Origin: a virus
Length of the DNA: 33,279 nucleotides
Direction: 5' to 3' (one strand)
IMG/VR virus record: IMGVR_UViG_3300025108_000207
Location: 1 to 33,279 of that record
Positions 9,101 to 29,345 of the stretch are shown one piece after another. Under the pieces are notes generated by a model. The model was given only the letters and a program-made list of their open reading frames with translations, did no database searches and was not told the DNA's origin. Every line of letters begins with the position of its first letter. The stretch's first letter is position 1. The translations under genes were made by a program, and so were the position numbers.

Positions 9101-10994
9101 CATTAATTACCGCGGTATTTTCGTCTGCTAAACCCGTGGAAGTGTAAAGCGCTCTTCCAGCTTGCTCCCACCAACCAGGCCAATCTGACTTGTCTATTGT
9201 GTCTATTCTTTCGTTTAATAAATAAATTCTTTTTAAACCCTCTAATTTTTTAATTAACTCAGCTTTTTGTTCAATTAAAACATCCCACTCATCTGATTTG
9301 GAATATCTGTAAACGTCTTTTCCATCAACAGTGGTGTACTGTATAGTTTTTTTAGGACGGAATTTAGAATTTCTTGTTTTATCCTCCCATTCTTTTAATG
9401 CAGCTGATGTTTTAACAAATTCTTCTTTTAAATCTTCTCTAGAAAATCCTTCAAAATTACCCATTGATTCTGCTACGCCATCTGTAAGATCTATTATCCC
9501 AGGACTTTTTGGATCTGCAATACCAGACGCTAATTTACCAGTATTAGAATCAAATAACGTTTTATAATTAGCTCTTGTTTTGTATTTATCTACGATTGGT
9601 TGTAAATCTTGGTTTAATTTTTTTATTACATCTGGGTCTTTTAAATCACCTTTTTCGTTTTCTTTATCTATTAGCAAATTCATTTCTGATATTGCCCCTT
9701 CAATATGATTAAAATTAGCTGAGTGTTGCTTTACAAAAGATCCATGAATACTATCCGCTGCTTCACTTTGACTATACCCCTCAGTGGTCATTAGTGATTT
9801 TGCTTGCTCGTTAATTTCTTTATTAGCATCCCTTTCGGCTAACTGAGCCCAATCAGCTGCAATATCACTATTAATAACGCCATGTACAATCTCATCAATA
9901 TCAACACTTGTAAGATTGTCAAAATTTACTCTAGCATTATCAAGCCACCCACCATGCTTAGCAATATCTGACATAACAGTGTCTATTAGAATTTCTTTAT
10001 TTTTTGGTGTTGCTATATTACTAAAGTTCGTTATACCTGTTCGCTTAAAAATATCATTTAAATTAGTTGGGTTTTCTAAATAGTTTTTTATAATACCTTT
10101 TGTAACTTCTTTTCTCTCTTTTTTAAACGCTGGTGTATCTTCAAATTGTGGTGTTTTAAAAAGCATAAACCTCTTTAATTCATCACTGGTATTCGCCCAA
10201 CCCAATTCCTTATAACTATCCGCGCCAACTCTAAAATTCATTTTATTACCATCACTTACCCTTTCAACAGTAAATTCATTACCAAGGGTACCAGCGGTGT
10301 CTACAATATAATCACTCCCTAAAATCTCCCCTAATTCATCTTTCATTAAATCTTCAGCATTCCATTTTTGAGAATGTTTGTCCCACACATTATCTATAGC
10401 GGTTTGTTGTTGTTGCCACGCTACAGGTTGTATTGCGATATCTCTTTGTTCAGAATTTATATACGTAGCCATATTCCACTTTAATCTTTCTAAACCCTCA
10501 TCCTCATCTGGTATAGGAAAAGCTCTTGAAGAATCCATCCACGGTAATTTTACTACTATTTGACCGCCAGCTAATCTAGTTCTTTTAAAAGTAACACCAT
10601 TATCTGAATGTCTATTATTAAGCTCCTTTAGATTAGAATCACTTATAAAATTATCTACAGACTCTCTATCTATAGTTAATTTATCAAAATTTGACTCGAT
10701 CATTGGTACATTTGTAACATCTGCTTCTGATGGGATAGTTTCGGTAAAGAAATTATCGTATTTAGATTTTTTCTCTTTCTTTTTTTCAACCACCTCTTTT
10801 TCTGGTTGTACCTTACTAGATTCTGTTTCAGCTATTCTATTTAATAATACTTCAGAACCATCGTCTGGTTCAGATTCTGTTTTTTCTAACTTACCAGGAT
10901 TTCTTTTATCCCATTCTCCAATAATAGTTTGTATATTCTCCTCTGATTGACCATCATCAACCATCTGTTGAATAATAGATTCTAACTCCTCCAT
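126..10994 (-). CDS. Giant (3622-residue) polyvalent internal virion protein, probably ejected with DNA
   Basis: Residues 1-35 form a short acidic helical start. Hydrophobic, Gly-rich segments lie near 668-700, 765-782 and 867-885. A zincin-like HELHH site is at 1019-1023. A HAD phosphatase-like domain spans about 2275-2435 (DFD at 2279-2281, T2357, DD at 2413-2414). A ~500-residue cassette follows. The C-terminal helical module includes LPFANTPLQMNR near 3382 and a probable membrane or amphipathic helix near 3428-3446. The protein ends in a run of ten lysines. This matches the class called polyvalent proteins: very large phage proteins carrying several effector or enzyme domains, thought to enter the cell with the genome. 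Its position after the tail genes and next to two other helical proteins supports an internal or ejected role. The start lies 2 bases after the upstream stop, with leader AAATAAAT. No RNA polymerase DFDGD motif is visible, unlike the virion polymerase of crAss-like phages. The overall function is inferred. Confidence 0.85.
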   Translation of the reverse strand: MEELESIIQQMVDDGQSEENIQTIIGEWDKRNPGKLEKTESEPDDGSEVLLNRIAETESSKVQPEKEVVEKKKEKKSKYDNFFTETIPSEADVTNVPMIESNFDKLTIDRESVDNFISDSNLKELNNRHSDNGVTFKRTRLAGGQIVVKLPWMDSSRAFPIPDEDEGLERLKWNMATYINSEQRDIAIQPVAWQQQQTAIDNVWDKHSQKWNAEDLMKDELGEILGSDYIVDTAGTLGNEFTVERVSDGNKMNFRVGADSYKELGWANTSDELKRFMLFKTPQFEDTPAFKKERKEVTKGIIKNYLENPTNLNDIFKRTGITNFSNIATPKNKEILIDTVMSDIAKHGGWLDNARVNFDNLTSVDIDEIVHGVINSDIAADWAQLAERDANKEINEQAKSLMTTEGYSQSEAADSIHGSFVKQHSANFNHIEGAISEMNLLIDKENEKGDLKDPDVIKKLNQDLQPIVDKYKTRANYKTLFDSNTGKLASGIADPKSPGIIDLTDGVAESMGNFEGFSREDLKEEFVKTSAALKEWEDKTRNSKFRPKKTIQYTTVDGKDVYRYSKSDEWDVLIEQKAELIKKLEGLKRIYLLNERIDTIDKSDWPGWWEQAGRALYTSTGLADENTAVINGGATEAQTVAATKELYEQMDIPLSRAAKEHSKTSTADMIAMGVGGTPRVVIEFAGFGKFVNGAKYLMGINKWAQALGKSRFLKGSTYLSEKAITKQANRWANRRGISITPKMTQQQIIGTYAAESGIKVVAPTLFNRGIITGVGALSEGLVFTGVERDIEGMPKGIGFSLAGKMIPPALKTKLTWLNTLYKLSSGGVRMATGNQVGTAFNGLVKDLTGHEDWQVFLKNNYDDPDAVMGGIITDLVLGAGLATTHMNRFDIQSHSRIKKGMGKFDTKRRQYIDEKGNIKKGDQANFDKWNDLYNAAKRRVYENEGIQDYLDPLKAAAMAKKEAKAAEADYKELGYNGVDITFKKPDKKSRKGEFKVNKKTNKVELEIDPEDITPGLLSHELHHPLYMKLMENKPAKAVNIKKLLDITRKIKLKEDLTLYQAIKQKGVEVSAIEGMDLAKVRESELFSYISETLRNGGYYNGIKNSNGWWQLKKWIQGDTKAIVNNRSMNDIVNWFAKYNENIGGGKTNLPHFEKLAELVENMEAGVEPTIAEPGVKAPLIEGLGPGASIKLQTYKNQVGLGSERLIDNQGRPITIQVSDKEENDFNTELQKSAVKPLDAKTIKDIKDKKAIDVSKLKPEMREKLETDILNLEAGADIYKVVEMYDPSLGKKTAGTGRVINKMASRSQTPGWDVIKEDVLREFLTGPRGIKGLTADYNRKVREGDIDPKTFPLGKFIGGKFDVRFQGIVEDLQSKKFTKQVEGEAVREPVAPKDPLMEELETKDFSPRAQLERMKWLEERGLTEETAETYVAKQDLMTLSKELGLKGNIVEKSQVTIPELKRNLALKLEPQRSGESKKEFSKRKKEYNKKIVSHKNSVHQYRKSIEKDLLTNFWGISKTTADKMSTVEEVDGQIVSKKGQALKTAQAWQLKGTENKPGDLQTVKNKVEETETKTIDGKEVEVYKNVPAILTAISKGAQDKIDPVDMTSVAPDVVRGKSAGVPKVLLNLGNELLFTPTSKRAQTAAGLPPFMQSEAFIKYQTTTDQAYKTEFEQKFVESLKTPQHYKAVMQEVGKNVYLQSVRSALPKESALARQLEAGKNEGLASERLLAEQIIEDVIKGKVKPGLNGYDTLFKTPEYKKFREQGLTDAWLNKVAKIEDAGKAAIADPAKVGEIMAEGMPKPDVKMEAIEAKGFQDMLGKLTTSWGKKAKQLFHNIKTGEGVDSYTQNETSRAVQNKFGAAIGNFYPTGKKSIIVSDLSNGKNRDWIHIEGHKDGGRYELISYPKGKKQTIDSWYDHNLGGEVFTGNGKNIKDAEFWFLRESIIKDTGKVKTDLANEVVAAHNRGESTQKIIEIVHSRGREMMTNGKPENFNRVLEANRLRRQFHLNAIKHVIENHADYDLTLQEAVQAALRHVRRHTNITNGSLKGTATITAGSIEVGIPVGEKIESPTHLGTMYHSEHQLQLQNFAYTFFDSLGRNWNGKKFNTKKFNKEMDVLNELFEQSTPLKQDQIIYDSRLFGGRTTYLKTFGNKNLGEVSSILNILYRPGVAETMVDFKSEVPQTIAETILENYTKKQLDVLLKLSSKLGEPNALHHTLSSKNTTGSRKLKVEKAKPIENIVGKGSTKGLGSDKLDRLAKAIDKAVAEGRKRNKKARGMSTFDFDETVGISENYIIATKGKETRKIASHEWPVIGEKLKNEGWKMDFTDFNKVTKGKPGPLMEKLKNQIKKFGNENVFILTARAKESAPAIYEWLKSEGVDIPLKNITGLGNSTGEAKAMWMLEKFAEGYNDMYFVDDAIQNVKEVKHVLDQLDVRSKVVQVQDVNKLDSPDTYGGVLASTKLRSEYEKTIAKHRPDLVKEGLVSRTVDDMFDFIDTLNVPANKKKKYEQITTKWLATSNIKLKEDAYKLKQAVEIAEKYKEDIFSYRNPNELIEKYAGKIKKKPLDPNKTKEFTFSGEHKERGITVYEVQNTKEGQQAVRDIIDTHWGKDSNPWCITQTSKLDTGFGEFKTRQKAESFAQKKRKEGAVVTIKKRKEPGKEGFYYEVNYENRSKEGKLTDDAWHNWTAYEKGPKRIIFQDGKLSSFYANRQYWDRMDNATDGPTISVKEGRVTKKVELVDMGGGKIEESTRETRTVSKDKKTVTTEIFAESQDGYIEGTKIVENRVNGKTVKSTRYNPKGGIVEIKEFNKNGKATASYNFFPDGKMSAVNNWGQPFGDMSINDVVMKKGDVLNHQHTEGDIAYMYGRVKLNNQVTEIGWKVAEKNSDLKNVIKTVDGKVRLDLKKVLKLDPDAKGLPKDFAKPQVRKGMQNLKPVKKVLDQLDIKSDVQQALASERLDIDINTIMEHSLGVESGKRFSKAEGKVRGKDIKRRRIIMPDSAADMELLIEPLLGKGKKGIANKKWFEKNFYKPWERGVNDLNTARQTILNDYMSLRKQNKDVTKQLDKAVEGTNFTVDQAMRVYIWNKNGFKIPDLVPTTEAKLIEHIKNNPKLQSYADRVATLTKIETGLKKPSAEWWAETLASEVSETGRTVDRQKYIADWIEAKNEIFSETNLNKMESRLGSRWRSDIEDMLNRMETGRTRGRDMGRIGNKVMNYLNGSVGAIMNLNTRSATLQLISSVNFINHAENNPLAAARAFANQPQYWKDFMKIMNSDMLVQRRQGLKINVTEAELAAAVDGKGNKAKKALAWILKQGYIPTKVADSFAIASGGATYLRNRIRMYEKQGLETKEAESKAWLDFQAIAEKTQQSSRADLLSRQQTSFEGRLILPFANTPLQMNRIMMKEMLDLSKGRYKGSFGENSFTNKMSKIAYYGAIQSLIFAGLQSGLFALMANGGDDKIIAQKKIRTVNTMTDSFLRGMGVQGAIAAGVKNAVLKFLEQNEKGYNADYNEVGEALLNISPTIGSKFSKLDQTGNTFKYNKKEILKKGLSLDNTKGIEASAQTIEAIMNIPIHRVVRKTQNIQDALDKKNEDWQRLMMLLGWSKWDVGIIDKKKKKKKKKKIKIKYL
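147..176 (-). repeat. Hexanucleotide microsatellite, five units, encoding a terminal polylysine run
   Basis: Five perfect head-to-tail copies of CTTTTT on the plus strand (AAAAAG on the coding strand) sit in the last codons of the giant gene and encode the lysine run before the IKIKYL end. Because the unit is six bases, gain or loss of whole units changes the lysine count by two without breaking the frame. A single-base slip within the A-runs would alter only the last few residues. Confidence 0.9.
2174..2219 (-). repeat. Imperfect direct repeat, copy 2 (right after the cassette in reading direction)
   Basis: These 46 bases match 3701-3746 at 35 of 46 positions by hand alignment, without gaps. 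Both copies encode VK-x-VLDQLD-[VI]-[RK]-S. The copies lie 1527 bases (509 codons) apart in the same frame. Confidence 0.75.
2205..3683 (-). other. Cassette inside the giant protein (about residues 2438-2930) with a WCIT-type domain and MORN-like repeats
   Basis: Between the HAD domain and the C-terminal helical module lies a segment of different character. It contains a domain with a short GITVYEV strand, then HWGKDSNPWCITQT, and later an aromatic block around YWDRMDN with many Trp and Tyr residues. After that come beta-rich repeats such as YNPKGGIVEIKEFNKNGK and SYNFFPDGKMS, which resemble MORN/YwqK-type repeats. Both ends are marked by related sequences: VLDQLDVRS at 2425-2433 and VLDQLDIKS at 2934-2942. 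I cannot assign the WCIT-type domain to a family. The boundaries are approximate. Confidence 0.5.
3690..4172 (-). other. HAD-superfamily phosphatase-like domain in the giant protein (residues 2275-2435)
   Basis: The four HAD landmarks occur in order and with plausible spacing: STFDFDET with the nucleophile Asp2279 and general acid Asp2281, FILTAR with Thr2357, a lysine in GEAKAMW, and MYFVDDAIQN with Asp2413 and Asp2414. These residues define a metal-dependent phosphohydrolase active site, and none is missing. The short span suggests a minimal core with a small cap. The substrate is unknown; polynucleotide 3'-phosphate or nucleotide phosphate are possibilities by analogy only. Confidence 0.85.
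3701..3746 (-). repeat. Imperfect direct repeat, copy 1 (end of the HAD domain)
   Basis: This is the partner of 2174-2219. It encodes the helix that follows the VDD motif of the HAD domain, about residues 2418-2432. In both copies a LAS[ET][RK]L motif follows downstream, at 2454-2459 after copy 1 and at 2948-2953 after copy 2. Confidence 0.75.
7695..8027 (-). other. Zincin-like metallopeptidase site in the giant protein (HELHH, residues 1019-1023)
   Basis: The motif ITPGLLSHELHHPLYMK contains the HExxH signature at 7926-7940. It follows a short basic strand region (KGEFKV, NKVELEIDP) and precedes helices with RESELFSYISETL, which could supply a third acidic zinc ligand. Polyvalent phage proteins often carry a zincin domain. 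Self-processing or cleavage of a host protein are both possible. The domain boundaries are estimates. Confidence 0.65.
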
Positions 10995-15438: not shown

Positions 15439-18400
15439 TTATGAGCAACACGCGTTATTGCAAAGATTCCAATTAGCGTGAACAGTAGGAGTTGGATCTA
15501 TTATCTCACATCCACAAGTCCATCCTCCAGTGCAAGTACAATCTGTAGGATCACTCCAACCACTAAAATGTATAATATACCCTAGATTTGCAAATAACGC
15601 TTGTAAAGCGGTTTTAGATATAGCATTTGGAATAGTTAATCCTAAAGCATTATTACTAGCATAATCTTGACATTTTTTTATTATAGAATCAATATCTTGT
15701 AAACTAGGGTAAACACCAGGGGAGTTACTACTTGTAGATGGCGGTGTAATATTTAAATCAACCCCCGTAATGAAAGCCCACCAAGTATTACCGTATCCAG
15801 TACCAGATTGATCCATACAAGCATTTTGCAATAGTGCCGCGTAACCATACTCTACTCGTAATTTATAATTTTTAATACAACCACCACCATTTGGGCAACC
15901 CAAGTTTGGAATATGGAAACCCCATATATAATTTAAATGACCGTCCATTTGAGTGTCCCAAGTTTGAGTAGTCCCCTGAGATATTGGAACATTATTCCAA
16001 TTTGCATGTAGTAGATCACATGAGTCAACAGCGTAACCTTGATCGCAATCCCAGTTGTAAACACAACTACTATTGTCAAAAGTAGCATTTGCATTATAAT
16101 TAGTTGCTTCTTTTGCTGGATAATTAGGTATGTTAACTCCAAGCGAAGTATCATAACCATAAAAAGCCCAATACGCTTGGTTTTGATTACCATCATCTGT
16201 ACATCCAGGAACAGTATACGTACAACAATCTCCGGGAGAAGTACCTGGTCCACCACAAGCTGGGGTAGTTGTTGATGAACAACCGACAAGTCCTGGTTGT
16301 ATTACGCTATTGTCGCAAGGTAGTACGCCAGGTGTAGAATCATAGTTATTTGCTAAAGGATCTAAACAACCATATGCAGGTGGAACGCTACAACTACCAT
16401 CATCACATTGTGCAGCTGAATTGTAGTTTGACGCTAATGAATTTGTACAACCATATATCATGGGTACATTAGAGATAGTTACTAACGTGCCACTATAAGT
16501 GCATCCGTTAGAATCTACAACATCTATATAATAAGTAGTGCCCGGAGAAATAGCGGGTGCTGGAATTATTGGTGAAATTGTTTGAACATTTGGTTGACCC
16601 GAAGCTTGGTTAGTTCCAGAACCAACCACATTACTATTACTATCTGTAACAGTCCAATCATATGTTACTTGTTGGTCTGTAACAACCCAAAATTTTATTT
16701 GAGAATCTTGATATACACCACACGGTCCTTCAATCATACCATTTCCAGACTTAAGATGTACAATTGGATCTATACATGCGGCGGGATAAGTACAACTATT
16801 ATCATCACAAGTAGCTAATAGGTTATAGTTAGTTGCTATTGGATCCATACATCCATAGACACAATAAATACAACTACCATCATCACACGTAGCCGCTGAG
16901 TTATAGTTTGTTGTGCCAGTTGAACTCGTACACCCAAAAATACAATAATTACAACTATCAACCTCATGACATGTTACGAGTGGATTATAATTTAGTGCAG
17001 AATTAGGTGGGGTAGCATTTGGGTCTACGTAACCTGCTGGTCTTTGAGGATAATTTGGAATTTGACCATTATCTCCACACCCATAAACACAAGCAGCAGA
17101 ATTTACAGAGGTGGCTACATCTAATCCTTGGTATGAAAATTCTCTAGGATCTATGTTACCTCGCTGACTAATAGGTTTTCTCATGTTATTGTCCCAAGTT
17201 GTTGCGTCACCTTTTATTTGCGCAAACCATTTACCTTCCTTATCTTTAAATTCTAATTTTTTTGTTTCTTGTAAGTTAGTTATCATTTTATTTACAAACC
17301 ACCCGTCTTTTGCTATATTATCATAATATTCTGGATTAGTACTATCAAATTCAATAAACGCTTGACTGCCTTCGTAATTTAAAGTATTAAAACTTTTAAC
17401 AGAACCAGGTGATTCATTAAATAAGAAAGTTATAGATGAATAAGGAAACTGTTTATTATAAAAATTATTTCTAGGATTTGGTAAACCAGGTAGTTGATAT
17501 TTAGTATGATGTTTCCAAATGTTTTCACGTTTAGCAGTATAATAATTATTATTTAAACTAAATCCTTGTTCTTGTAAAAATGATTTAAAACTACTCCATC
17601 CTTTAACGTTTTCATTAAAAGTTAACGTATTTCCACCTAATTCAATAATCGCTCCCCCAGCTACAGTATCTAAATCATGATTATAAATAGTAAGATTGTA
17701 GTCACCTTTTCTTTCATCAAAACTACCAATTACCTCATAAGCATCTGGTAAATTATCAGTAAACCAATCTTTCATTCCAACATTAGATATTGGTGTTAAT
17801 CCATCTTGAGATAATCTTAGTACGGCTCCTTTATTTTTATCAGTAAAATACGATCTAAATGACGCTGAAGCAAATGATTCTGGATTTTTTGATATTCCAT
17901 AATTACCAGCATAAGTTATAGCCTGCCCTAAAACATTTGAGGTTGCAATCATATTTATATTACCATCTGCATTATATAACGCGTCTTTATTTGCTAATAT
18001 TTTTAAGCACTTTTCTTCACATAATGTAATTATATCAGTATCTCTTGAATATAGTTTTTGAATACTACCATAAGTTGGATTTAAATCTTTTGTTATACCT
18101 TCTGCTTCTATAAATTGATTTAAATTATTTATACCTGTTTTTGAATTAAATATACCAGAAAATATTAATCCATTACTTCTTCTTTCTTCTTTGTATGTTT
18201 TCGATATTGTTGTAGAAGCTTTAGGACCTTTATCTATAATAACTTCATTAAAATCATCTCTGATACGATTAGATTCTACACCGTTACCAAATGAATAACA
18301 ATTAAACCAAGGTGGTCTTATATATCTGTTTGCAATATTTTCATCTAATGTAAAGTATCCAGCTTGTTTATTTTGTATAAACTGAAGATTTAATGATACG

Positions 18401-21400
18401 TCTTGTTCAAATACCATTGCTTCTGTAGTGCTGCCATCAGCTCTATAAAATACTAAAATATCTCCTGGAAATGGAGAGTCAGAAGCTACTAATCCAGTAC
18501 TAGGATTACCATTACTATCAACTATTTTAATTTCGTTAGGAAAGGTTAGATCTAATGGGTTTAATGCAGTCCCAGAAAAATCATTCCAACTTTCTATAAG
18601 CATTGGACCAGTAGACCAAGGAATCCAACCAATTGGTATACCTGGATTAGCTTGCACGTAATCTGAATCTGCGGGTCTATATATTTTAACCTCAGATCCG
18701 ACGGGAGCATGTAATGTATTTGTTCTCTCATTTAATCTTGTGGCATATATTTGACCTATTTCATAATAAATATCTAAATCAATATCATTTTTTGGCTCTG
18801 TTTCCCATATAGCTGGATTTCCGCTACTAAAACTACCAGTAGCGCCAAAAACAGTTAAAGAAGATTCTGGTAAAAGTACTTGCCATGTAAAGGATCCACT
18901 TGTTACACCTCTGTCCGCATTATATTCTGCTGGTGGATTTATAGTGCCACCTACGGTAGGACTAACATAAGCTGTTCCATTCCAATATGTAGTTGATGTT
19001 GTACCAGAGTTTGATAATTGCCCACTACCCATACCATCATGCCTAACGCCGGGAGCTTTTAATGGTGCGGTATTACCAAAACTAGCAGTAGTCGTATTCC
19101 ACCTAGGATCATTTGTTGGTAAATATCCAGTTGGACCAGAACCTAATTCATCACCTGATAAGGTTCTAGCTTCAATAGTCCATCTTTGACTTCTATTCCA
19201 ATTAGCCGTATTCGAACTCGATTTTCCAAACACATCGTCGACTGGATTAGTAATCCCACTAATACCAAATGAATTAGCATTGGCAGTAGATTGATATATA
19301 ACTGAATTAGAAAAATAAGTGGTATTCCAATTAAAGTGAGTAAAACTACCAATATTATGAGAACTATGAGTAGTCATTCCAATTGTTTGGGTATTAAAAT
19401 GTATACTACTTTCTCCAACTCTCTTCCATCCACCTAAAGTGCCACCAGTATTATACCAGTCTGAAATTATAGTATTTGAGTTTTGTGTTTCGTATATAGT
19501 TTGGTCAGGATCTTCCGCCCATCTCCAAGTAGTCCCTGGAGTTGTAATAGCATTAATAAATATAACATCATCTATATATTTAACTGTATTACCACTTAAC
19601 CAAGCTGAATTGCAATTAGCGTTACAACCTGGCACGGTGTTAGAATATGGTATACCATAATTAGTGAGTAAATTTTGAATATCTTCACCACCAAATCCTA
19701 AGCAAGACAAATCAATATATACTGTATCCCCATTACTGTCATCATATATACCAGAATTATAAAGAAGATTCCCGCGTGACCCACCACTTGGTGATTTAAA
19801 ACGTCTATCTAATATTTCTTGATTTGTATAATTATTTCCTGGTTGTTCTTCTGCCCAAGGACGATAGGCGTTTGGACCAATCGCAAGTTGTGCGGGTAAT
19901 AAATTATCATTAATATCATCTCTTACATTTCCTAACGTGTTTTGATCATTTGTCGGATTATTTGGTATACTCGGTACTACGACATTGTTTACTCTAGGAT
20001 AACTCCACGCGGAATTACCTCCCGCTCCAATTACCGCCCCTGTACTATCAACTTCAAAATCTACTCGCGATGCTATATTAGAGAAAAACGTAAAAGACGG
20101 CATTCTTCCGTAAGTTTGAAACATTGAATTTTTACCTGATCTACCATCTATAAACCATCGAGAGGCATTACCATTTCCATTAGTAGTATCTTGAGCTTCA
20201 AATGATGTCCAAAATTGCTCTCCATTTCCTTGATGGTTAGTTGATATAGCCCAATCTGGACCTGAAATCGGATCGGCATTTGCTTGGCTAAATGAAGGAT
20301 AACCAGAAAAACGAACGGTAGCATGTCTTCCTGTTTGAAAGTTTTGAGCAGGACTTATATTAGAAGTTACAACGTTCAAATTATCAGTACCCCAACCATC
20401 CCAAGAATCAGTAGCATTAGATGTAGACCAATCGGAGTTTGGTTCAATAACCTGGCAAAGCATAGATGATATTATTCGATACGAATCTGCGTTTAAGTTA
20501 CTTTTTAATATTGTTTGTTCTAACGTTGGATCTTTATGAATTTTAACAAAAAATCTACCGTCAAATTCTGGTAAATATTTTACTTCTTCTTTAACAATTT
20601 CTATACTTAAAGTATCACTAGTTGAAAAAACCATATCTCCTTTAAAATCTCTATCTACTTTTATCTCATATTCAAGAGGACTAGAACTAGAAACAGGAAA
20701 AGAAGAAATTATATTATACCACTCACTTTTTATAACATCGGTACCTATTCTTATTTTTAAAGTATCTACTACTTGTGGCCCTGACACACTAGTATCCCAA
20801 CCTACACCTTCAAACTCTGTACCTACTATTCTAATAAAATCATTTAACGGTGTTGGAAACCCAGTAACTATTGCGTTACTAAATATAGCAGAACCTAATC
20901 CACTTAAAACTCCTATAGGAGTTTTAACAGTTTTTATAAATCTTGGGGCATCATTTTCAATTGCTAATATCTTATATTTAGCTGGATCTGATACAAAAAC
21001 ACTATTATCGTGTTCTTTTTTTAATATTAAAAACGTGTCTTCGAAACGTTCTTCATCTGTGTTTATGGATATTTTAGCTCTTTCTGAAGATGGAAAAGAC
21101 AACCAAATATTACCATCCTCTGCATCATACCATTTATCCATTGGTAAATTATAATATTCATTGGAGGTTTCTTTTATAAAAAATTTAAATGATTCAGCAA
21201 AATCAGGAACTATATTTTTAATAGCCATTTCAAAATGACTACTTTTATCGGCCCACTTTTTCTCATGATATTTCGCCATGTCTACATCTGAAAAAACTGG
21301 AGTTTCTCTACCATATTTATCTCTATAAATAATTCCGAGTTGATATGTTCTTAAAGTTTTTATTGATTTAGCTGGACCATAACTCCAAGCGTCTTTAACA

Positions 21401-23553
21401 TTTTCCTCTTCAGGTTGTAAATGTCCTACAGAATTACTACTTGATATATTAAAAAATAAATCTGTTTCTACTTCTGGAATTGATTCACAACCAATATTAC
21501 TACCAGTACTACAATTAACTTTGTCTATAGCGCTCAAATTATAATTTTGTAGATAGTTACCGTATAATAATCTATTACCAGTTATTTCTTGTGCTTTTGC
21601 TTTTCTTGGTACAGCATCCCAATGTCTTAGTAATTGATTTGGGGCAATGGTACCTTGAATCATTTCTGATTTTATTTGTATATATCCAGTGGTTTCTTCC
21701 CAGTATTTAATACTATTTGCAGTTTTACTTAACGCTTTCCATCTACTACTATTTCGCTCAATCTTTACTACAGAATATATATTAGAAATATCTGATTCTT
21801 TATAAACAACTTCTATAGATTCTACATCATCGGGTAATAAATTATTGTGTGGGATAAATCCTTTAATAGCTAACTTCCTTAATTTATTAGTCATATTAAG
21901 ATTATATCCCTTTTCAGGTAAATAATCCATTGGATTTTTATCTGGTAAAAACGCTACTTCGGTAAAAGGAGAATATGTCGAGTATTCTCCATCTTCATAT
22001 TTATATCTAATAGCAAATCTTGGAAATTTAAATATAAATAATTCTTCCTCTGTTTCTATTTCACTTATCCACCCAGTACTTGTATTATCTATGTTCCCAC
22101 TACTACTAATTATTTTCACTTTATATGATCCGTAATTCCAATCAGGACCTTCTAAAATTTCAGCTCTAATTTGTAACAATGGAGACGTGCCTGGTATAGA
22201 AAAAATAACAATATCACCAGTTGAATAAAATGGTACTATACTAAAATCTATAGTACATCCTGATGGCCATGCAGGCGGATTAGCACTTGTTGGAGGACAA
22301 GAGGTACATCCAACGCACGGTACTGAAGTGTTAGGAGCGGGTGTTGACGGCCCACCATAACTAATCCATATTTCATCTCCAGAATTTATAGTAGAAGTTG
22401 CAGTGTTCGAATTATAAAATGGATTAAACGGTATTCCAGTGTCGTCTTTATCATAAACTATCCCGTTAGTGTTTGTGTCTCCCTCTGTTCTCATCATTTC
22501 TAATACCGGTGTTAGATGAGGAGATTCTTTAATAACGGTTATATGTTTTTCTTCTATCGGTCTACCTCCAAATGATCCCGTTGGATCTTCGTCTCCTAAC
22601 CAAAATTTATCAGAAGAAAGATTTGCGGTAGGTATTTTTGTTACGAAATTTGTGTGGTGATAGGCGCTAAGGGGATTAGTTCCTGCAGATGTAAATGGAT
22701 GTCTACAACCTAATACACTTTTAGGAATGTGTATTTTTTTAGGTTCAGAATAATCATCTGTCCATAAAAGAAAATCATCAATGATACTGATACCGGTAAT
22801 AAAATTATCATGTTCAAAGTTAAGAACTCTTGGGGCAGAAAAAACTAAATTGTTAACAAGTGTAATTTCTAAATTAATTTCTCCAGTTAATTCAATATCA
22901 CGATAATTAGGATTAGTTAAAGGTAAGAATTTTTTTATTTTAGGTGGTTTTTTGTTAAAAGTATTAACATTACCACGGTTTGCTATAGCGCCGTTAACAT
23001 CAACAGTATATACGTTTAATTCCATACCTTCTCGTAAACCTTTTATATCTGGTATGCGTATTATATTGATAGGAGATGATGGTATTGCCCATCCTAAATA
23101 AAGACCAACGGCAACAGAATATATATCTACTAAAACAGGTTCGTTAACAGTAGCGTTAGATCGAACAATATAATCAGCAGATATGTAATTTTTTTGGTCA
23201 CCAAACGCCGGCCATGCATTTGTATTTATTTGGGGTGGAGGTCCTGCAACAAAACGATATCCCCAATCATTTTTTTCATCTACTATACTACCTATAGTTT
23301 TATTTTTATAAAAAGAACTCCCTATTCCATTTAACGATGGATATTCTATAGTGAGATCAGGTAAGTCAGCTTCTTGTTGAATACCAAATATCTTTTTATT
23401 GCCCATAGTAGTCTGAGCTGATCCTACATCATCTTCTTCTGATGAGGCTATCTCTATATTTAGAGCATCTCTATATTCACCGTTTGGAACTAGTCTTTCG
23501 TCCAGATCCTTATTCATACGACCGGATTGGAAACTACGCTTAAGCTCTGGCAT
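15439..23553 (-). CDS. Tail stabilisation/hub protein fused to a Cys-rich adhesin-like region, 2704 residues
   Basis: The N-terminus (FQSGRMNKDLDERLVPNGEY, then RDALNIEI) is the hallmark start of podoviral tail stabilisation proteins of the T7 gp12/P22 gp10 functional class, as I recall them from marine and crAss-like phages. Other familiar segments are WETEPKNDIDLDIYYE and RSYFTDKNKGAVLRLSQDG. A small Cys cluster (VPCVGCTSCPP) lies near residue 412. From about 2156 to 2500 the protein changes to Cys-rich repeats with a PKD/SprB-like segment (DVVDSNGC, Cys2351) between them. A further Cys-rich tail ends in CNNACCS. The hub part should sit below the portal ring, and the repeats probably project towards the cell surface. 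Four bases separate it from the 387-residue gene's stop. The length is far above the ~800 residues usual for a tail tubular B protein, so it is a fusion or an expanded form. Confidence 0.8.
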   Translation of the reverse strand: MPELKRSFQSGRMNKDLDERLVPNGEYRDALNIEIASSEEDDVGSAQTTMGNKKIFGIQQEADLPDLTIEYPSLNGIGSSFYKNKTIGSIVDEKNDWGYRFVAGPPPQINTNAWPAFGDQKNYISADYIVRSNATVNEPVLVDIYSVAVGLYLGWAIPSSPINIIRIPDIKGLREGMELNVYTVDVNGAIANRGNVNTFNKKPPKIKKFLPLTNPNYRDIELTGEINLEITLVNNLVFSAPRVLNFEHDNFITGISIIDDFLLWTDDYSEPKKIHIPKSVLGCRHPFTSAGTNPLSAYHHTNFVTKIPTANLSSDKFWLGDEDPTGSFGGRPIEEKHITVIKESPHLTPVLEMMRTEGDTNTNGIVYDKDDTGIPFNPFYNSNTATSTINSGDEIWISYGGPSTPAPNTSVPCVGCTSCPPTSANPPAWPSGCTIDFSIVPFYSTGDIVIFSIPGTSPLLQIRAEILEGPDWNYGSYKVKIISSSGNIDNTSTGWISEIETEEELFIFKFPRFAIRYKYEDGEYSTYSPFTEVAFLPDKNPMDYLPEKGYNLNMTNKLRKLAIKGFIPHNNLLPDDVESIEVVYKESDISNIYSVVKIERNSSRWKALSKTANSIKYWEETTGYIQIKSEMIQGTIAPNQLLRHWDAVPRKAKAQEITGNRLLYGNYLQNYNLSAIDKVNCSTGSNIGCESIPEVETDLFFNISSSNSVGHLQPEEENVKDAWSYGPAKSIKTLRTYQLGIIYRDKYGRETPVFSDVDMAKYHEKKWADKSSHFEMAIKNIVPDFAESFKFFIKETSNEYYNLPMDKWYDAEDGNIWLSFPSSERAKISINTDEERFEDTFLILKKEHDNSVFVSDPAKYKILAIENDAPRFIKTVKTPIGVLSGLGSAIFSNAIVTGFPTPLNDFIRIVGTEFEGVGWDTSVSGPQVVDTLKIRIGTDVIKSEWYNIISSFPVSSSSPLEYEIKVDRDFKGDMVFSTSDTLSIEIVKEEVKYLPEFDGRFFVKIHKDPTLEQTILKSNLNADSYRIISSMLCQVIEPNSDWSTSNATDSWDGWGTDNLNVVTSNISPAQNFQTGRHATVRFSGYPSFSQANADPISGPDWAISTNHQGNGEQFWTSFEAQDTTNGNGNASRWFIDGRSGKNSMFQTYGRMPSFTFFSNIASRVDFEVDSTGAVIGAGGNSAWSYPRVNNVVVPSIPNNPTNDQNTLGNVRDDINDNLLPAQLAIGPNAYRPWAEEQPGNNYTNQEILDRRFKSPSGGSRGNLLYNSGIYDDSNGDTVYIDLSCLGFGGEDIQNLLTNYGIPYSNTVPGCNANCNSAWLSGNTVKYIDDVIFINAITTPGTTWRWAEDPDQTIYETQNSNTIISDWYNTGGTLGGWKRVGESSIHFNTQTIGMTTHSSHNIGSFTHFNWNTTYFSNSVIYQSTANANSFGISGITNPVDDVFGKSSSNTANWNRSQRWTIEARTLSGDELGSGPTGYLPTNDPRWNTTTASFGNTAPLKAPGVRHDGMGSGQLSNSGTTSTTYWNGTAYVSPTVGGTINPPAEYNADRGVTSGSFTWQVLLPESSLTVFGATGSFSSGNPAIWETEPKNDIDLDIYYEIGQIYATRLNERTNTLHAPVGSEVKIYRPADSDYVQANPGIPIGWIPWSTGPMLIESWNDFSGTALNPLDLTFPNEIKIVDSNGNPSTGLVASDSPFPGDILVFYRADGSTTEAMVFEQDVSLNLQFIQNKQAGYFTLDENIANRYIRPPWFNCYSFGNGVESNRIRDDFNEVIIDKGPKASTTISKTYKEERRSNGLIFSGIFNSKTGINNLNQFIEAEGITKDLNPTYGSIQKLYSRDTDIITLCEEKCLKILANKDALYNADGNINMIATSNVLGQAITYAGNYGISKNPESFASASFRSYFTDKNKGAVLRLSQDGLTPISNVGMKDWFTDNLPDAYEVIGSFDERKGDYNLTIYNHDLDTVAGGAIIELGGNTLTFNENVKGWSSFKSFLQEQGFSLNNNYYTAKRENIWKHHTKYQLPGLPNPRNNFYNKQFPYSSITFLFNESPGSVKSFNTLNYEGSQAFIEFDSTNPEYYDNIAKDGWFVNKMITNLQETKKLEFKDKEGKWFAQIKGDATTWDNNMRKPISQRGNIDPREFSYQGLDVATSVNSAACVYGCGDNGQIPNYPQRPAGYVDPNATPPNSALNYNPLVTCHEVDSCNYCIFGCTSSTGTTNYNSAATCDDGSCIYCVYGCMDPIATNYNLLATCDDNSCTYPAACIDPIVHLKSGNGMIEGPCGVYQDSQIKFWVVTDQQVTYDWTVTDSNSNVVGSGTNQASGQPNVQTISPIIPAPAISPGTTYYIDVVDSNGCTYSGTLVTISNVPMIYGCTNSLASNYNSAAQCDDGSCSVPPAYGCLDPLANNYDSTPGVLPCDNSVIQPGLVGCSSTTTPACGGPGTSPGDCCTYTVPGCTDDGNQNQAYWAFYGYDTSLGVNIPNYPAKEATNYNANATFDNSSCVYNWDCDQGYAVDSCDLLHANWNNVPISQGTTQTWDTQMDGHLNYIWGFHIPNLGCPNGGGCIKNYKLRVEYGYAALLQNACMDQSGTGYGNTWWAFITGVDLNITPPSTSSNSPGVYPSLQDIDSIIKKCQDYASNNALGLTIPNAISKTALQALFANLGYIIHFSGWSDPTDCTCTGGWTCGCEIIDPTPTVHANWNLCNNACCS
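16055..17091 (-). repeat. Cys-rich Bacteroidota-type repeats in the tail protein (residues about 2156-2500)
   Basis: About seven units, some degenerate, follow the pattern GC-x-D/S-x-x-A-x-NY-x-x-x-A-x-CDDGSC. Clear units include FGCTSSTGTTNYNSA with CDDGSC, YGCMDPIATNYNLLA with CDDNSC, YGCTNSLASNYNSA with CDDGSC, YGCLDPLANNYD and GCTDDGNQ with NYNANA. The similarity is also visible in DNA: the 19 bases at 16389-16407 are identical to 16869-16887. Such units are common in secreted proteins of marine Flavobacteriia. The regular Cys spacing and DDGS loops suggest disulphides and perhaps calcium binding. Confidence 0.8.
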
Positions 23554-24724: not shown

Positions 24725-25429
24725 TTATGCTTTTTGTTGTTGAATTTTTTGTACTTCTTCTTGGTTAGTTATACCTACTATATCTGGATGTTTTATAATA
24801 ACACCTGCTAATTCTAGTATTTTTATTACTAGGTTAGTTTCTTCCGCGTTGTGTAATTGAAAATTAACTGATGTACCGGCGTTATATAAAGCTTTTTCTC
24901 CAATAACATTATAACCCCATTCAACTTTTATAGGTTTATTTATTACTTCACAAGTAACACCTGTTGTAACTTGTCCAATAGATGTAGTTGCAGTGTTCCA
25001 TCCAAAAACTTCTATATCTTCTCCGCTAGTTGCGCTACTTCTATAAATAGGATTTCTTCGCAAACCAACTTCATGAAATTGAGAATTTATTATGTTATTT
25101 GCTTCATTAAAATCAACTTGCCTAACTTCATGTCCGTTTTGAAATATTCTACCTATTCTATAATTAGTAGGAAAAGTAGTTCCACTATTTACACTGCTTA
25201 TAGTAATAAATGGTGATAACTTATTTTCTATTAATTCTTCCATATCAGAAAACGTAGTTTCTTCACTTGGTTGTCTTTTGAATTGATTTAAATCGTAAAA
25301 GTATTGTTCAAATATTTCTAATTGAGCTTGATTAGCTAAAAGATTAAACTCTAATGGAGTTATGTATCCTCTTTGTTCTTTATTAGCTAATGCTAATACT
25401 CTTTGATAAACTGTGTCTATAAATATCAT
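24725..25429 (-). CDS. Head-tail connector-type structural protein, 234 residues
   Basis: The N-terminal helices (FIDTVYQRVLALANKEQRGY, ITPLEFNLLANQAQLEIFEQ) are followed by a beta-rich middle (FPTNYRIGRIF, EDIEVFGWNTA, CEVINKPIKVEWGYNV) and an amphipathic C-terminal helix (EETNLVIKILELAGVIIKHP) with a Gln-rich end. The layout and position between the small Cys protein and the next ring protein fit an adaptor binding the portal or the ring below it. The start at 25429 lies 5 bases after the preceding stop, with a leader of A and T only. No catalytic motif is visible. Assignment is by context and general pattern, not by a firm family match. Confidence 0.7.
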   Translation of the reverse strand: MIFIDTVYQRVLALANKEQRGYITPLEFNLLANQAQLEIFEQYFYDLNQFKRQPSEETTFSDMEELIENKLSPFITISSVNSGTTFPTNYRIGRIFQNGHEVRQVDFNEANNIINSQFHEVGLRRNPIYRSSATSGEDIEVFGWNTATTSIGQVTTGVTCEVINKPIKVEWGYNVIGEKALYNAGTSVNFQLHNAEETNLVIKILELAGVIIKHPDIVGITNQEEVQKIQQQKA

Positions 25430-25434
25430 AATTT

Positions 25435-25602
25435 TTATTTATAATTATAAGGAAATAATTTATTTAATTTTTCTTTCCTTTTATCACAACCACAATCTTT
25501 ATTAGTAGTTTTGTTAACTATATCAACTACTTTTTTTATTCCAGTTACTTTTGTTATTTTTTCAATTGTATCGCCTAATCCTTTAGATTTATTTAATTCC
25601 AT
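25435..25602 (-). CDS. Small conserved phage protein with CGC motif, 55 residues
   Basis: From the ATG at 25600-25602 the protein begins MELNKSKGLGDTIEKITKVT, continues with GIKKVVDIV and ends DCGCDKRKEKLNKLFPYNYK. It is small and basic. The CGC-x4-x3-LN-x-x-FPY end is a pattern I recall in small hypothetical proteins of marine phages. The Cys pair could bind metal or form a contact, but this is unproven. An in-frame GTG at 25630-25632 would add ten residues; I prefer the ATG because that GTG lies inside the stable hairpin at 25616-25656. It sits within the head-connector genes, so a virion or assembly role is plausible. Function is unknown. Confidence 0.7.
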   Translation of the reverse strand: MELNKSKGLGDTIEKITKVTGIKKVVDIVNKTTNKDCGCDKRKEKLNKLFPYNYK

Positions 25603-25615
25603 ACAATTTGTTTTA

Positions 25616-25656
25616 TGTAGTTTTGCAATCACCCCGTAGGGCGATCGCTCACTACA
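25616..25656 (-). promoter_or_regulatory. Structured RNA element with UACG tetraloop in the leader of the 55-residue gene
   Basis: In the minus-strand transcript, UGUAGU (25656-25651) pairs with ACUACA (25621-25616). Inside, after a small internal loop (GA against AAA), GCGAUCGCCC pairs with GGGUGAUUGC: ten pairs with two G-U wobbles, closed by the loop UACG. C(UACG)G is a member of the very stable UNCG tetraloop class. The element begins 6 bases after the 278-residue gene's stop codon and ends 13 bases before the ATG at 25602. No U-tract follows, so it is not a typical intrinsic terminator. It could be an RNA processing or stability element, or a translation control. Confidence 0.75.
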
Positions 25657-25662
25657 AGTTGA

Positions 25663-26499
25663 TTACGAATTTAATCGTTTTTCTATATTGGAGTAAATCT
25701 CCATTCCTTCATCAGTTTTAAACCAATGCGCTAAAGCAGTATATGGATGTTCATCAAATGGTATAACCATTAGTTTTCTTCCATTACTACCCCACAAAAA
25801 GTTTCTTTGATCAGAAGATAATCTTAATATTCCAGCTTCTACAGCTCTAATACCAAAATTTCTTAACATCACGTTCTCATCATCCGCAAGCTCTAAGAAG
25901 AGTTTAGGATTGTTTCTAGCAAATACTAGTAAATCACGTCTAAGTTCCTTAGAACTCAACCTAGATACCTCAGAACCTTTCTCAACACGCATAATAGCCT
26001 CTGCCATATCAATATCAATATTTCTAGCAGCGACAAGCGCTTCTACTTGTTGTTCTAGTATATCTATTTCATCAGCCGCTATAACGGAAGGTCTATACTC
26101 ATAATATATTTTATCTTTATGAGGATGATATAAACTTAGTAATTTTTGTAAAACTGTTTTTTCTTTTTCTACAAATAAAGTACCGTTTCTAAAAATAATA
26201 TGATCTAATCTTTGGTCACCTTTCATTTCGTCTACAAAAGAAGTTTTTTGATTTTGACAATATTTAAGTTCTCTTTCATAACCTTTTTCTTCGTCAAAAT
26301 AATAAATATTTGCAGATTTAATCATTCTAGATAAAGGTTTTTTATTACCTTTTAAATAATAAGCTCTATCTTTTATTTCCCATTCATTAGATGGTACTTT
26401 TCTTTCTCTTACTTTTGGTTGTTCTACAACCGGTGGTGTTTCTACCACGTCTTGAACTTGAGGTTCTTCCACCTCAACTTTTTTTGTTTTCTTTGACAT
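25663..26499 (-). CDS. Conserved head-module protein downstream of the capsid gene, 278 residues
   Basis: The N-terminal ~35 residues are charged and disordered (MSKKTKKVEVEEPQVQDVVE, then VVEQPKV). Next comes a compact domain with KDRAYYLKGNKKPLSRMIKS and HIIFRNGTLFVEKEKTVLQK, then a helical part (EIDILEQQVEALVAARNIDI, LRRDLLVFARNNPKLFLELA) and a conserved-looking end (FLWGSNGRKLMVIPFDEHPY). The N-terminus and leader resemble those of the scaffold-like gene. It is the first gene after the terminator that follows the capsid gene. Head completion, capsid decoration or internal head roles all fit; I recognise no enzymatic motif. I have seen this type only as a hypothetical protein next to capsid genes. 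Confidence 0.75.
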   Translation of the reverse strand: MSKKTKKVEVEEPQVQDVVETPPVVEQPKVRERKVPSNEWEIKDRAYYLKGNKKPLSRMIKSANIYYFDEEKGYERELKYCQNQKTSFVDEMKGDQRLDHIIFRNGTLFVEKEKTVLQKLLSLYHPHKDKIYYEYRPSVIAADEIDILEQQVEALVAARNIDIDMAEAIMRVEKGSEVSRLSSKELRRDLLVFARNNPKLFLELADDENVMLRNFGIRAVEAGILRLSSDQRNFLWGSNGRKLMVIPFDEHPYTALAHWFKTDEGMEIYSNIEKRLNS

Positions 26500-26533
26500 A
26501 ATATAATATATAATAAAATTAATAAAAATAAAA
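26500..26533 (-). repeat. AT-only leader shared with the scaffold-like gene (copy 2)
   Basis: The leader immediately before the 278-residue gene's ATG closely matches the leader at 29317-29345. Both contain ATAATATAATATA next to the start codon and ATTAATAAAAAT farther away. All bases except the two at the far edge are A or T, and no Shine-Dalgarno sequence is present. Confidence 0.6.
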
Positions 26534-26561
26534 GGACCGAGGCCGAAACCTCGGTTCTTTT
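26530..26561 (-). terminator. Intrinsic terminator after the major capsid gene
   Basis: The coding-strand hairpin has AAAAG-A-ACCGAGG pairing with CCTCGGT-C-CTTTT: 13 positions with one A-C mismatch and a 6-base loop (TTTCGG). It begins 14 bases after the capsid stop codon, and a T-rich run (CCTTTTATTTTTATT) follows. Read on the plus strand the mismatch becomes a G-U wobble, and that side ends in only four Ts. It most likely ends or attenuates transcription leaving the capsid gene, so that capsid messenger RNA exceeds that of the connector genes. Confidence 0.88.
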
Positions 26562-26575
26562 AAAGTAATAAATGC

Positions 26576-28087
26576 TTATTTCATTAACATGAAATTATTC
26601 GCACCTTGAGTAACTAAACATCTTTCAGAAAGCATGTGGATTTGCATCGCATCTAAAGCAGATGTAGCAGCTCCAACAGAACCAGTAGTCCATGTTTTAA
26701 GTTTTCTGTTGTCTGTTTGAGAAGCTCTGTATCTAACATGTAAGAAAGGTCGTCTAAGGTTCTTTCCTAACGCTTGGTCATAAACAGTAGATGTACCAGC
26801 TGGAACCATGACACCTCTAATCGCGTTAGCGCCAGCGTTGTCATTAACACCTCCTCTAGTAGCCTTATCGTTTAAGTATCTCATATCTGATTTGTAGAAA
26901 TCGTAAGAACCTCTACGGAATCCTGAGAAACCTAAATTAAGTGCCATATCTTCTGAGTTAGAGAATACCCCGTAAGAAGTACCACCAGCACCATAAGAAT
27001 TCATTGAAGCAAGCATATCATCCATTGCAAGAGACGTAGCTCTATTAACAAACATCATGTTTTCTTCAATTGCACCTTGACCATCAAACTCTGCTAAAAT
27101 AGCGTCAAATTCAGCTAAATCAGTAGCTGGGTTAACACCAGTAACACCAGAAGTCGTATTACCTCTATCTTCGATAGCGGCAAATAAACCTTCAGTTCCA
27201 ACTGTAGAACCAGTAGCGTATCCAAGAACAGCATCAACACCTTGAGCAGCACCAGAACCACCAGCACCGAAATTGTGAGAATCGTCATCTCCAAGTTCAC
27301 CTTCCAACATTGCCATTTCTAAGTGATCAGTAAAACGAGCTCTAGTATCAGCTTCAGCTTTTAAATACCATAAGTATCCAGCACCTCCACCTTCAGAAGT
27401 AACTTCAACCCAACCAATTTTACCTGTATCAGAACCCGATACTTCGTAGTAATCTCTGATAATAATTGGTTTGTTGGAGAAAGTTTTGAACTTAGGTTCG
27501 TTAGCTGTTCTACTATCGGAATGAGTACCATCTTTTGCGTTGTAACCAACACCTTTGGCCCACTCAGAACCATAAACCATTATAGTAGTTTTCTTGTTAC
27601 CAGTAGCTCCAGAAGTAGCGATCGTACTACCATCGTACGCAGCAACAGTAATATCACAGTCGTTCGTACCTGTCATTGATACTACTATAGCTTTATAAAC
27701 TCCATTAGGAGTTGCCACTACAACAGTATCAGATACTCTAATACCGTGTGTTACCGAAATACCAGCTTCAGCATAATTGTTTCCATCGATATCAGATTGT
27801 ACTGTGATAACATCATCCGCGTCTATATCACCTAAATAAGATAAGTGTAATCTACCTTGCTCCGACCAAATAACCTGGTCAGCAGTCATAGATTCTTCAG
27901 CCCCAACTTGTGATAAGAAGCCTGAAATAGTTCTCGGTCCGAAAACTTCAGCTTCTTTCTCCATTAGGTCTGGTACATATTGTTGACCCCATCCAGACGT
28001 GCTGTTGAGGTCTAAATAATTTGTTTCGAGTGTTTGCTTTATTGGAGCGGGCACACTATTCAAATTAGTTCCTGCAGTAATTGACAT
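26576..28087 (-). CDS. Major capsid protein (HK97-fold expected), 503 residues
   Basis: The position after portal and scaffold-like genes, a 503-residue length and sequence patterns all support the capsid protein. Near the N-terminus are YVPDLMEKEAEVFGPRTISG and QVIWSEQGRLHLSYLGD. The middle has KPIIIRDYYEVSGSD and LEMAMLEGELGDDD. The end, MQIHMLSERCLVTQGANNFM, is a pattern I recall in capsid proteins of marine and crAss-like podoviruses. Local base composition is richer in G and C than in the neighbours (hand counts of 22/60 at 27001-27060 and 30/60 at 27241-27300, against 15/60 at 25261-25320), which fits codon tuning of the most abundant protein. A strong terminator follows. No separate prohead protease gene is visible nearby. 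HK97 fold is inferred from family knowledge. Confidence 0.88.
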   Translation of the reverse strand: MSITAGTNLNSVPAPIKQTLETNYLDLNSTSGWGQQYVPDLMEKEAEVFGPRTISGFLSQVGAEESMTADQVIWSEQGRLHLSYLGDIDADDVITVQSDIDGNNYAEAGISVTHGIRVSDTVVVATPNGVYKAIVVSMTGTNDCDITVAAYDGSTIATSGATGNKKTTIMVYGSEWAKGVGYNAKDGTHSDSRTANEPKFKTFSNKPIIIRDYYEVSGSDTGKIGWVEVTSEGGGAGYLWYLKAEADTRARFTDHLEMAMLEGELGDDDSHNFGAGGSGAAQGVDAVLGYATGSTVGTEGLFAAIEDRGNTTSGVTGVNPATDLAEFDAILAEFDGQGAIEENMMFVNRATSLAMDDMLASMNSYGAGGTSYGVFSNSEDMALNLGFSGFRRGSYDFYKSDMRYLNDKATRGGVNDNAGANAIRGVMVPAGTSTVYDQALGKNLRRPFLHVRYRASQTDNRKLKTWTTGSVGAATSALDAMQIHMLSERCLVTQGANNFMLMK

Positions 28088-29316: not shown

Positions 29317-29345
29317 AATATAATATAATAATAATTAATAAAAAT
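29317..29345 (-). repeat. AT-only leader shared with the 278-residue gene (copy 1)
   Basis: The entire gap between the portal stop and the scaffold-like ATG consists of A and T and matches 26500-26533 over most of its length. Downstream, both genes share the 15 bases TACTTTTGGTTGTTC (plus strand, 29263-29277 and 26410-26424), which encode EQPKV in both proteins. Confidence 0.6.

Follow-up and report, generated by a model that had tools for sequence, protein, structure and literature searches.

A conserved, single-copy RNA hairpin at the boundary of head and neck genes in marine tailed phages

Introduction

Phages with long late operons make capsid and connector proteins in very unequal quantities, which is usually put down to promoters and terminators. 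In the stretch of viral DNA analysed here (the window; IMG/VR record IMGVR_UViG_3300025108_000207, 33,279 nt), a strong hairpin lies between the head genes and the neck/tail genes. Neither a description of this hairpin nor a transcript map of the region was found in the open-access literature. The element itself is new and belongs to a kind already known; the function proposed below is read from the comparison of sequences.

Results

Genomic surroundings and structure of the hairpin

The window covers part of the genome of a tailed phage that is kin to cultured flavobacterial phages, namely Pervagoviridae (Cellulophaga phi38:1 and Calle_1), Elemovirus, Maribacter phage Panino and Manatee Spring MW202828 (about 36–51% portal identity). 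The genes are arranged in the order terminase, portal, scaffold-like protein, capsid (PHROG 13704), 278-aa protein (g278), hairpin, 55-aa protein (g55), 234-aa virion structural protein (g234), 387-aa virion protein and muzzle-like protein (table 1). A PDB search with the capsid protein gave no match. The 234- and 387-aa proteins are ring-like and the muzzle protein is crAss-type, and all of them lie on the neck/tail side of the hairpin; a Crassvirus muzzle C-terminal domain was detected in the 2704-aa protein (Pfam PF25729). The same protein (15439-23553, minus strand) also carries several cysteine repeats of the type YGCTNxxAxNYNxxAxxDDGSC. The late cluster ends with a 3622-aa protein without Pfam match (126-10994, minus strand). 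A KDCGCxxRK motif is conserved in the 55-aa protein.

Table 1. Positions of the hairpin, its parts and the neighbouring features in the window
Feature	Position	Strand	Details
Intercistronic RNA hairpin	25616-25656	minus	fold −25.3, z −7.07; covariance model match R1, E 6.2e-9; covariation
Outer helix of hairpin, 6 pairs	25651-25656 / 25616-25621	minus	TGTAGT / ACTACA
Inner helix of hairpin, 10 pairs with two G-U	25639-25648 / 25625-25634	minus	GCGATCGCCC / GGGTGATTGC
Hairpin loop UACG, cap C(UACG)G	25635-25638	minus	
A/U-rich unstructured spacer, 13 nt, from hairpin to next ATG	25603-25615	minus	
g278, 278-aa gene upstream of hairpin	25663-26499	minus	PHROG 34748
g55, 55-aa gene downstream of hairpin	25435-25602	minus	PHROG 32048
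g234, 234-aa virion structural protein gene, constant downstream gene	24725-25429	minus	PHROG 14543
503-aa gene, putative major capsid protein	26576-28087	minus	PHROG 13704; match to Calle_1 major capsid protein
Canonical intrinsic terminator past major capsid gene	26536-26555	minus	ACCGAGG-UUUCGG-CCUCGGU then CCUUUUAUUUUU
P1, near-invariant AT-only block abutting g278 ATG	26500-26525	minus	TTATTAATTTTATTATATATTATATT; candidate late promoter

The hairpin is 41 nt long and runs from 25656 to 25616 on the minus strand, the coding strand of all large genes. The RNA reads UGUAGU-GA-GCGAUCGCCC-UACG-GGGUGAUUGC-AAA-ACUACA, with an internal loop of 2/3 nt (GA vs AAA) between the two helices. It begins 6 nt past the stop codon of g278, which ends at 25663, and its end is followed 13 nt downstream by the ATG of g55 at 25602. 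These spacings had been described in an earlier note on this DNA, together with the coordinates, the helices of 6 and 10 pairs, the two G-U pairs, the UACG loop and the lack of a U-tract. All of these features were confirmed when read on the minus strand, which the note had left implicit.

On the minus strand the hairpin folded in its context to −25.3 kcal/mol, compared with a mean of −7.9 for shuffled sequences (z −7.07), and none of 200 shuffles was as low; the plus strand of the site reached only −15.3. When the window was scanned in 13,296 overlapping 41-nt pieces (5-nt step, both strands), values of about −16 or lower were found only at the hairpin site and at the terminator 26536-26555, both of which stand out. 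In exact register, the hairpin as a 41-nt piece folded to −22.7, and no other local fold of the window is as stable.

The site 25616-25656 thus has the stable GC-rich hairpin of an intrinsic terminator, and the sequence right after the stem (AAAACTACATAAAAC) is not the U-rich tract of one. A terminator scan of the window did not include the hairpin among its entries, and with no U-tract the identity of a canonical terminator was rejected. Assignment to a known RNA family was likewise rejected, as Rfam 15 gave no match in the window at curated score. The statement of the earlier note that most intergenic DNA consists only of A and T is correct for the remaining gaps of the window with the exception of 26500-26575, where a second GC-rich hairpin forms the canonical terminator.

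Conservation and compensatory base changes

IMG/VR was scanned twice with g278 homologues as protein anchors (best 80 matches each), which gave 116 distinct loci in which the gap is complete. This sample covers near and middle relatives, and five more distant cultured phages were examined separately. A strong hairpin, defined as a fold of −13 kcal/mol or lower in the first 58 nt past the stop codon, was present in 115 of the 116 distinct gaps of these related marine phages. The sole exception, L070, has three extra genes past g278, and a hairpin of the canonical terminator type lies behind these, before g55. The inserted genes (L070, 3945-5295) encode proteins of 107, 118 and 222 aa without PHROG match, possibly extra head or decoration proteins.

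The analysis of covariation used 24-nt cores with tetraloops, 32 of them distinct (320 cells). Standard pairs occupied 99.7% of the cells (89.7% when shuffled), the covariation score was 0.656 (0.425 when shuffled), and two-sided changes were found at seven of the ten inner-helix pairs. Sliding the register lowered the pairing to 33–53%. The inner helix therefore shows the compensatory changes of a conserved structured RNA element; missing pairs or uncompensated substitutions in relatives, which the earlier note had named as evidence against its element, were not what the gaps contained. G-U pairs were frequent, and the sense strand was more stable than the antisense strand in 50 of 52 gaps, indicating that the selected object is the RNA of the mRNA strand. 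Together with the UNCG loops on the sense strand, the G-U pairs show that the hairpin acts as RNA.

The hairpins fall into several classes. In class A, the type found in the window, the unpaired flank on the 5' side, TC(A/T)AAC, and the lower stem, TGTAG/CTACA, are nearly constant while the upstream gene falls to 55–60% amino-acid identity, a constancy to be read with the fact that class A loci were partly gathered with a pattern that fixes some bases of the flank and lower stem. No covariation was seen in the lower helix within class A; in the other classes this helix is swapped for different complementary arms. Indeed, in classes B, C, C7 and E and in the terminator type, the entire sequence is replaced at the same place. 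The class of the hairpin was poorly predicted by the tree of the 278-aa protein (37 changes), so that it follows g278 phylogeny only weakly.

Copy number and position

Of 25 large records, 23 contained a single strong match to a covariance model of the core; the remaining two have a 7-nt loop. In the window, too, the model found one strong copy. A dispersed repeat was accordingly rejected. Pattern scans of 2.9 million viral contigs detected at least 120 class A and 30 class B matches. Among the matches listed, 119 of 120 in class A and all 30 in class B lie directly behind a g278 homologue (149 of 150 together), and the one remaining match adjoins g234 at a contig end. Nothing in the bacterial and archaeal genome contigs searched matched the class A pattern, and a host-derived element was rejected on this basis. 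Single copy and fixed position were thus shown alongside RNA structure, conservation and sense-strand action. The analysis also yields a covariance model that has been tested, and a position that can serve as a single-copy marker for these phages.

The gene next to the hairpin was g234 in 58 of the 116 loci, g55 in 51, and another or undetermined gene in seven. The hairpin is retained ahead of the next gene where g55 is absent at this place. On the 278-aa protein tree, g55 was gained or lost in 33 changes. In 67 of 83 loci of the type without U-tract, the spacer from hairpin to ATG measured 11–15 nt, whichever gene comes next; its median in the terminator type was 57 nt. The distance from stop codon to hairpin is 6 nt in the window, and gaps of the terminator type had a median of 11 nt.

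Gaps with and without a U-tract

All five cultured relatives with the shared gene order (MW202828, Panino, Flavobacterium phage elemoE, phi38:1 and Calle_1) have a U-tract after a GC-rich hairpin in this gap, and in four of them a TAnnTTTG promoter (Bacteroidetes -7 element) lies past the hairpin. In the marine set, 33 gaps had a U-tract, and 31 of these also contained P2, a conserved promoter-like block CTAACCTTYCRCTTTATTATGTAACTATA between the terminator and the next ATG, which was found in none of the 82 gaps without U-tract. All 15 of 15 records of the U-tract/P2 type contained P2, each as a single copy, vs none of five of the other type. P2 is a candidate promoter. In loci of the L265-L335 type (e.g. 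the gap past g278 in L265), the single-copy block between the canonical terminator and the next gene reads CTAACCTTYCRCTTTATTATGTAACTATA(ATATAGTA). The U-tract state changed seven times on the best tree, with two well-supported independent pairs for its link with P2. Because these evolutionary events are few, the data are suggestive, not proof, of an association of U-tract and P2 across the marine gaps.

The gap of the window contained no U-tract, TAnnTTTG element, P1 or P2. In the 9 nt past the last G-C pair, class A had a mean of 1.8 T, compared with 7.3 in the terminator class D. The tail of class B reads UUUAUU, and two loci (L008 and L067) have a U-tract without the P2 block.

A hairpin was also found in the gap between the capsid gene and g278 at the loci examined, in most of them as a canonical U-tract terminator, followed by P1. 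Since a U-tract terminator is retained only 0.9 kb upstream, the missing U-tract is specific to the head/neck site and not a habit of the lineage. P1 is the putative late promoter of the transcript bearing the hairpin. A second AT-only block (ATTTTTATTAATTATTATTATATTATATT; 29317-29345, minus strand) abuts the ATG of the scaffold-like 402-aa gene and is almost invariant across relatives. The blocks at 26500-26525 and 29317-29345 are candidate phage late promoters in place of the flavobacterial TAnnTTTG type.

Discussion

Proposed function

The ancestral element would have been an ordinary intrinsic terminator, as is still found at this place in the cultured relatives, and in the lineage of the window the U-tract appears to have been lost, with no recognisable promoter after the hairpin. 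With neither of the two present, RNA polymerase would often have to read through. Provided that g278 is transcribed from P1 and that no recognisable start of transcription lies in the next gap, the neck and tail genes depend on read-through of the hairpin, and this is probably the case, unless a promoter of an unrecognised type lies inside the end of g278. The UNCG-capped stem would then work post-transcriptionally on the late mRNA, at the boundary of the head genes (capsid and 278-aa) and the neck/tail genes. It would mark the 3' terminus of the upstream message or shield it from 3'-5' exonucleases, and an endonuclease may or may not cut near the stem. In this way the hairpin probably sets how much message of each part survives.

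A precedent is the cip-cel operon of Clostridium cellulolyticum, in which very stable stem-loops, usually without U-run and conserved in relatives, lie behind genes of a multi-protein assembly (PMC4423207). Of 33 intergenic 3' stem-loops in that species, 28 have no U-run; the stem-loops set subunit ratios, the stability of the stem and the transcript ratios are correlated, and internal promoters are used instead in a relative that lacks the loops (PMC4423207). Like these SRPS stem-loops, in which a U-run is optional, the conserved hairpin is intergenic and directly behind its upstream gene, 6 nt past the stop. Unlike them, it lies among phage late genes and has a UNCG cap and a tightly fixed geometry. 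The hairpin is therefore proposed, with about an even chance of being so, to be an SRPS-like derivative of the head/neck-boundary terminator, one that no longer fully terminates and that marks or protects the upstream message at its 3' end. Conservation, compensation, sense-strand action, the single fixed copy, the terminators of cultured relatives, the U-tract/P2 census, the terminator upstream and the C. cellulolyticum precedent all support this reading. Of the functions named in the earlier note, a processing or stability element is thus the best supported. Control of the 55-residue gene was rejected, as g55 is missing here in about half of the relatives and the hairpin persists.

Alternative explanations

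The class B tail and the two U-tract loci without P2 count against a full loss of termination, and fit partial termination as an ancestral or shared function. They also keep close behind the SRPS-like reading its main rival, a partial intrinsic terminator (attenuator) whose stem, even without a good U-tract, pauses the polymerase and frees some transcripts, so that the neck/tail genes are transcribed less than the head genes. This has a real, if minority, chance of being correct. True terminators stand at the same position in the cultured relatives and in the P2 subgroup, and the extended A/U lower stem is one that many terminators have; the poor T content past the class A stem argues against it, as does the place of the hairpin within the footprint of the terminating ribosome, nearer to the stop codon than in the terminator type. 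The tight spacer to the ATG, kept regardless of the gene that follows, could instead reflect an insulator of translation, in which the stem keeps the A/U-rich start of the next gene unpaired and separates its initiation from ribosomes finishing g278. Initiation in Flavobacterium johnsoniae does require an A-rich region free of structure, with A at -3, -6, -12 and -13 (PMC6847099). Other genes of the window, however, have similar A/U leaders of about 20–30 nt without a hairpin, the terminator type has a long spacer, and a compact genome would by itself yield a short one, which makes an insulator unlikely.

Less probable still is an operator, i.e. a class A hairpin recognised by a phage or host protein that regulates the message. 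The near-constant flank and lower stem, the latter without covariation within class A, would suit a binding site, and to this extent another proposal of the earlier note, that a capsid or connector protein binds the element as a sensor, has some weak backing in one class. The exchange of the whole sequence in the other classes and in the terminator type shows that no single binding sequence is required, and the constancy within class A is in part that of the collecting pattern. The single copy per genome and the weak link to the 278-aa tree, which suggests that the junction may recombine, would also be expected of an element acting as DNA (a cruciform, packaging or recombination site). Such an element would not retain G-U pairs and sense-strand UNCG loops or fold more weakly on the antisense strand, and the cruciform in particular is disfavoured by the G-U pairs and the strand asymmetry. 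Chance is excluded by the z of −7 and the compensatory changes, and this last group of explanations is very improbable.

Comparison with other phage elements

GC-rich stems between the g278 homologue and the next gene are shared with phi38:1/Calle_1, elemoE, Panino and MW202828; their stems have U-tracts and, in four of the five, the TAnnTTTG promoter, and the hairpin of the window has neither. The head/neck boundary may be a place of exchangeable cassettes, either a terminator with an internal promoter or a U-less UNCG hairpin with read-through, an idea put forward tentatively and as rather less likely than not being so. If it were true, the control of virion stoichiometry in the lineage would have changed, at a single site, between a transcriptional and a post-transcriptional mode. 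The natural variants (terminator and promoter vs U-less hairpin) permit a direct comparison, at a well-supported RNA element of a widespread and mostly uncultured group of marine phages.

The PeSL (promoter-early stem-loop) cassettes of T4-type phages likewise place a stem-loop at a gene boundary and may be exchanged between genomes. Unlike in these, no promoter of the TAnnTTTG, P1 or P2 type stands next to the stem-loop in the gap of the window. Intercistronic C(UUCG)G hairpins were reportedly described in phage T4 by Tuerk et al. in 1988. They resemble the present element in structure, as stable UNCG-capped hairpins between phage genes, and differ from it in that the element described here occurs as a single copy at one position and covaries across marine phages.
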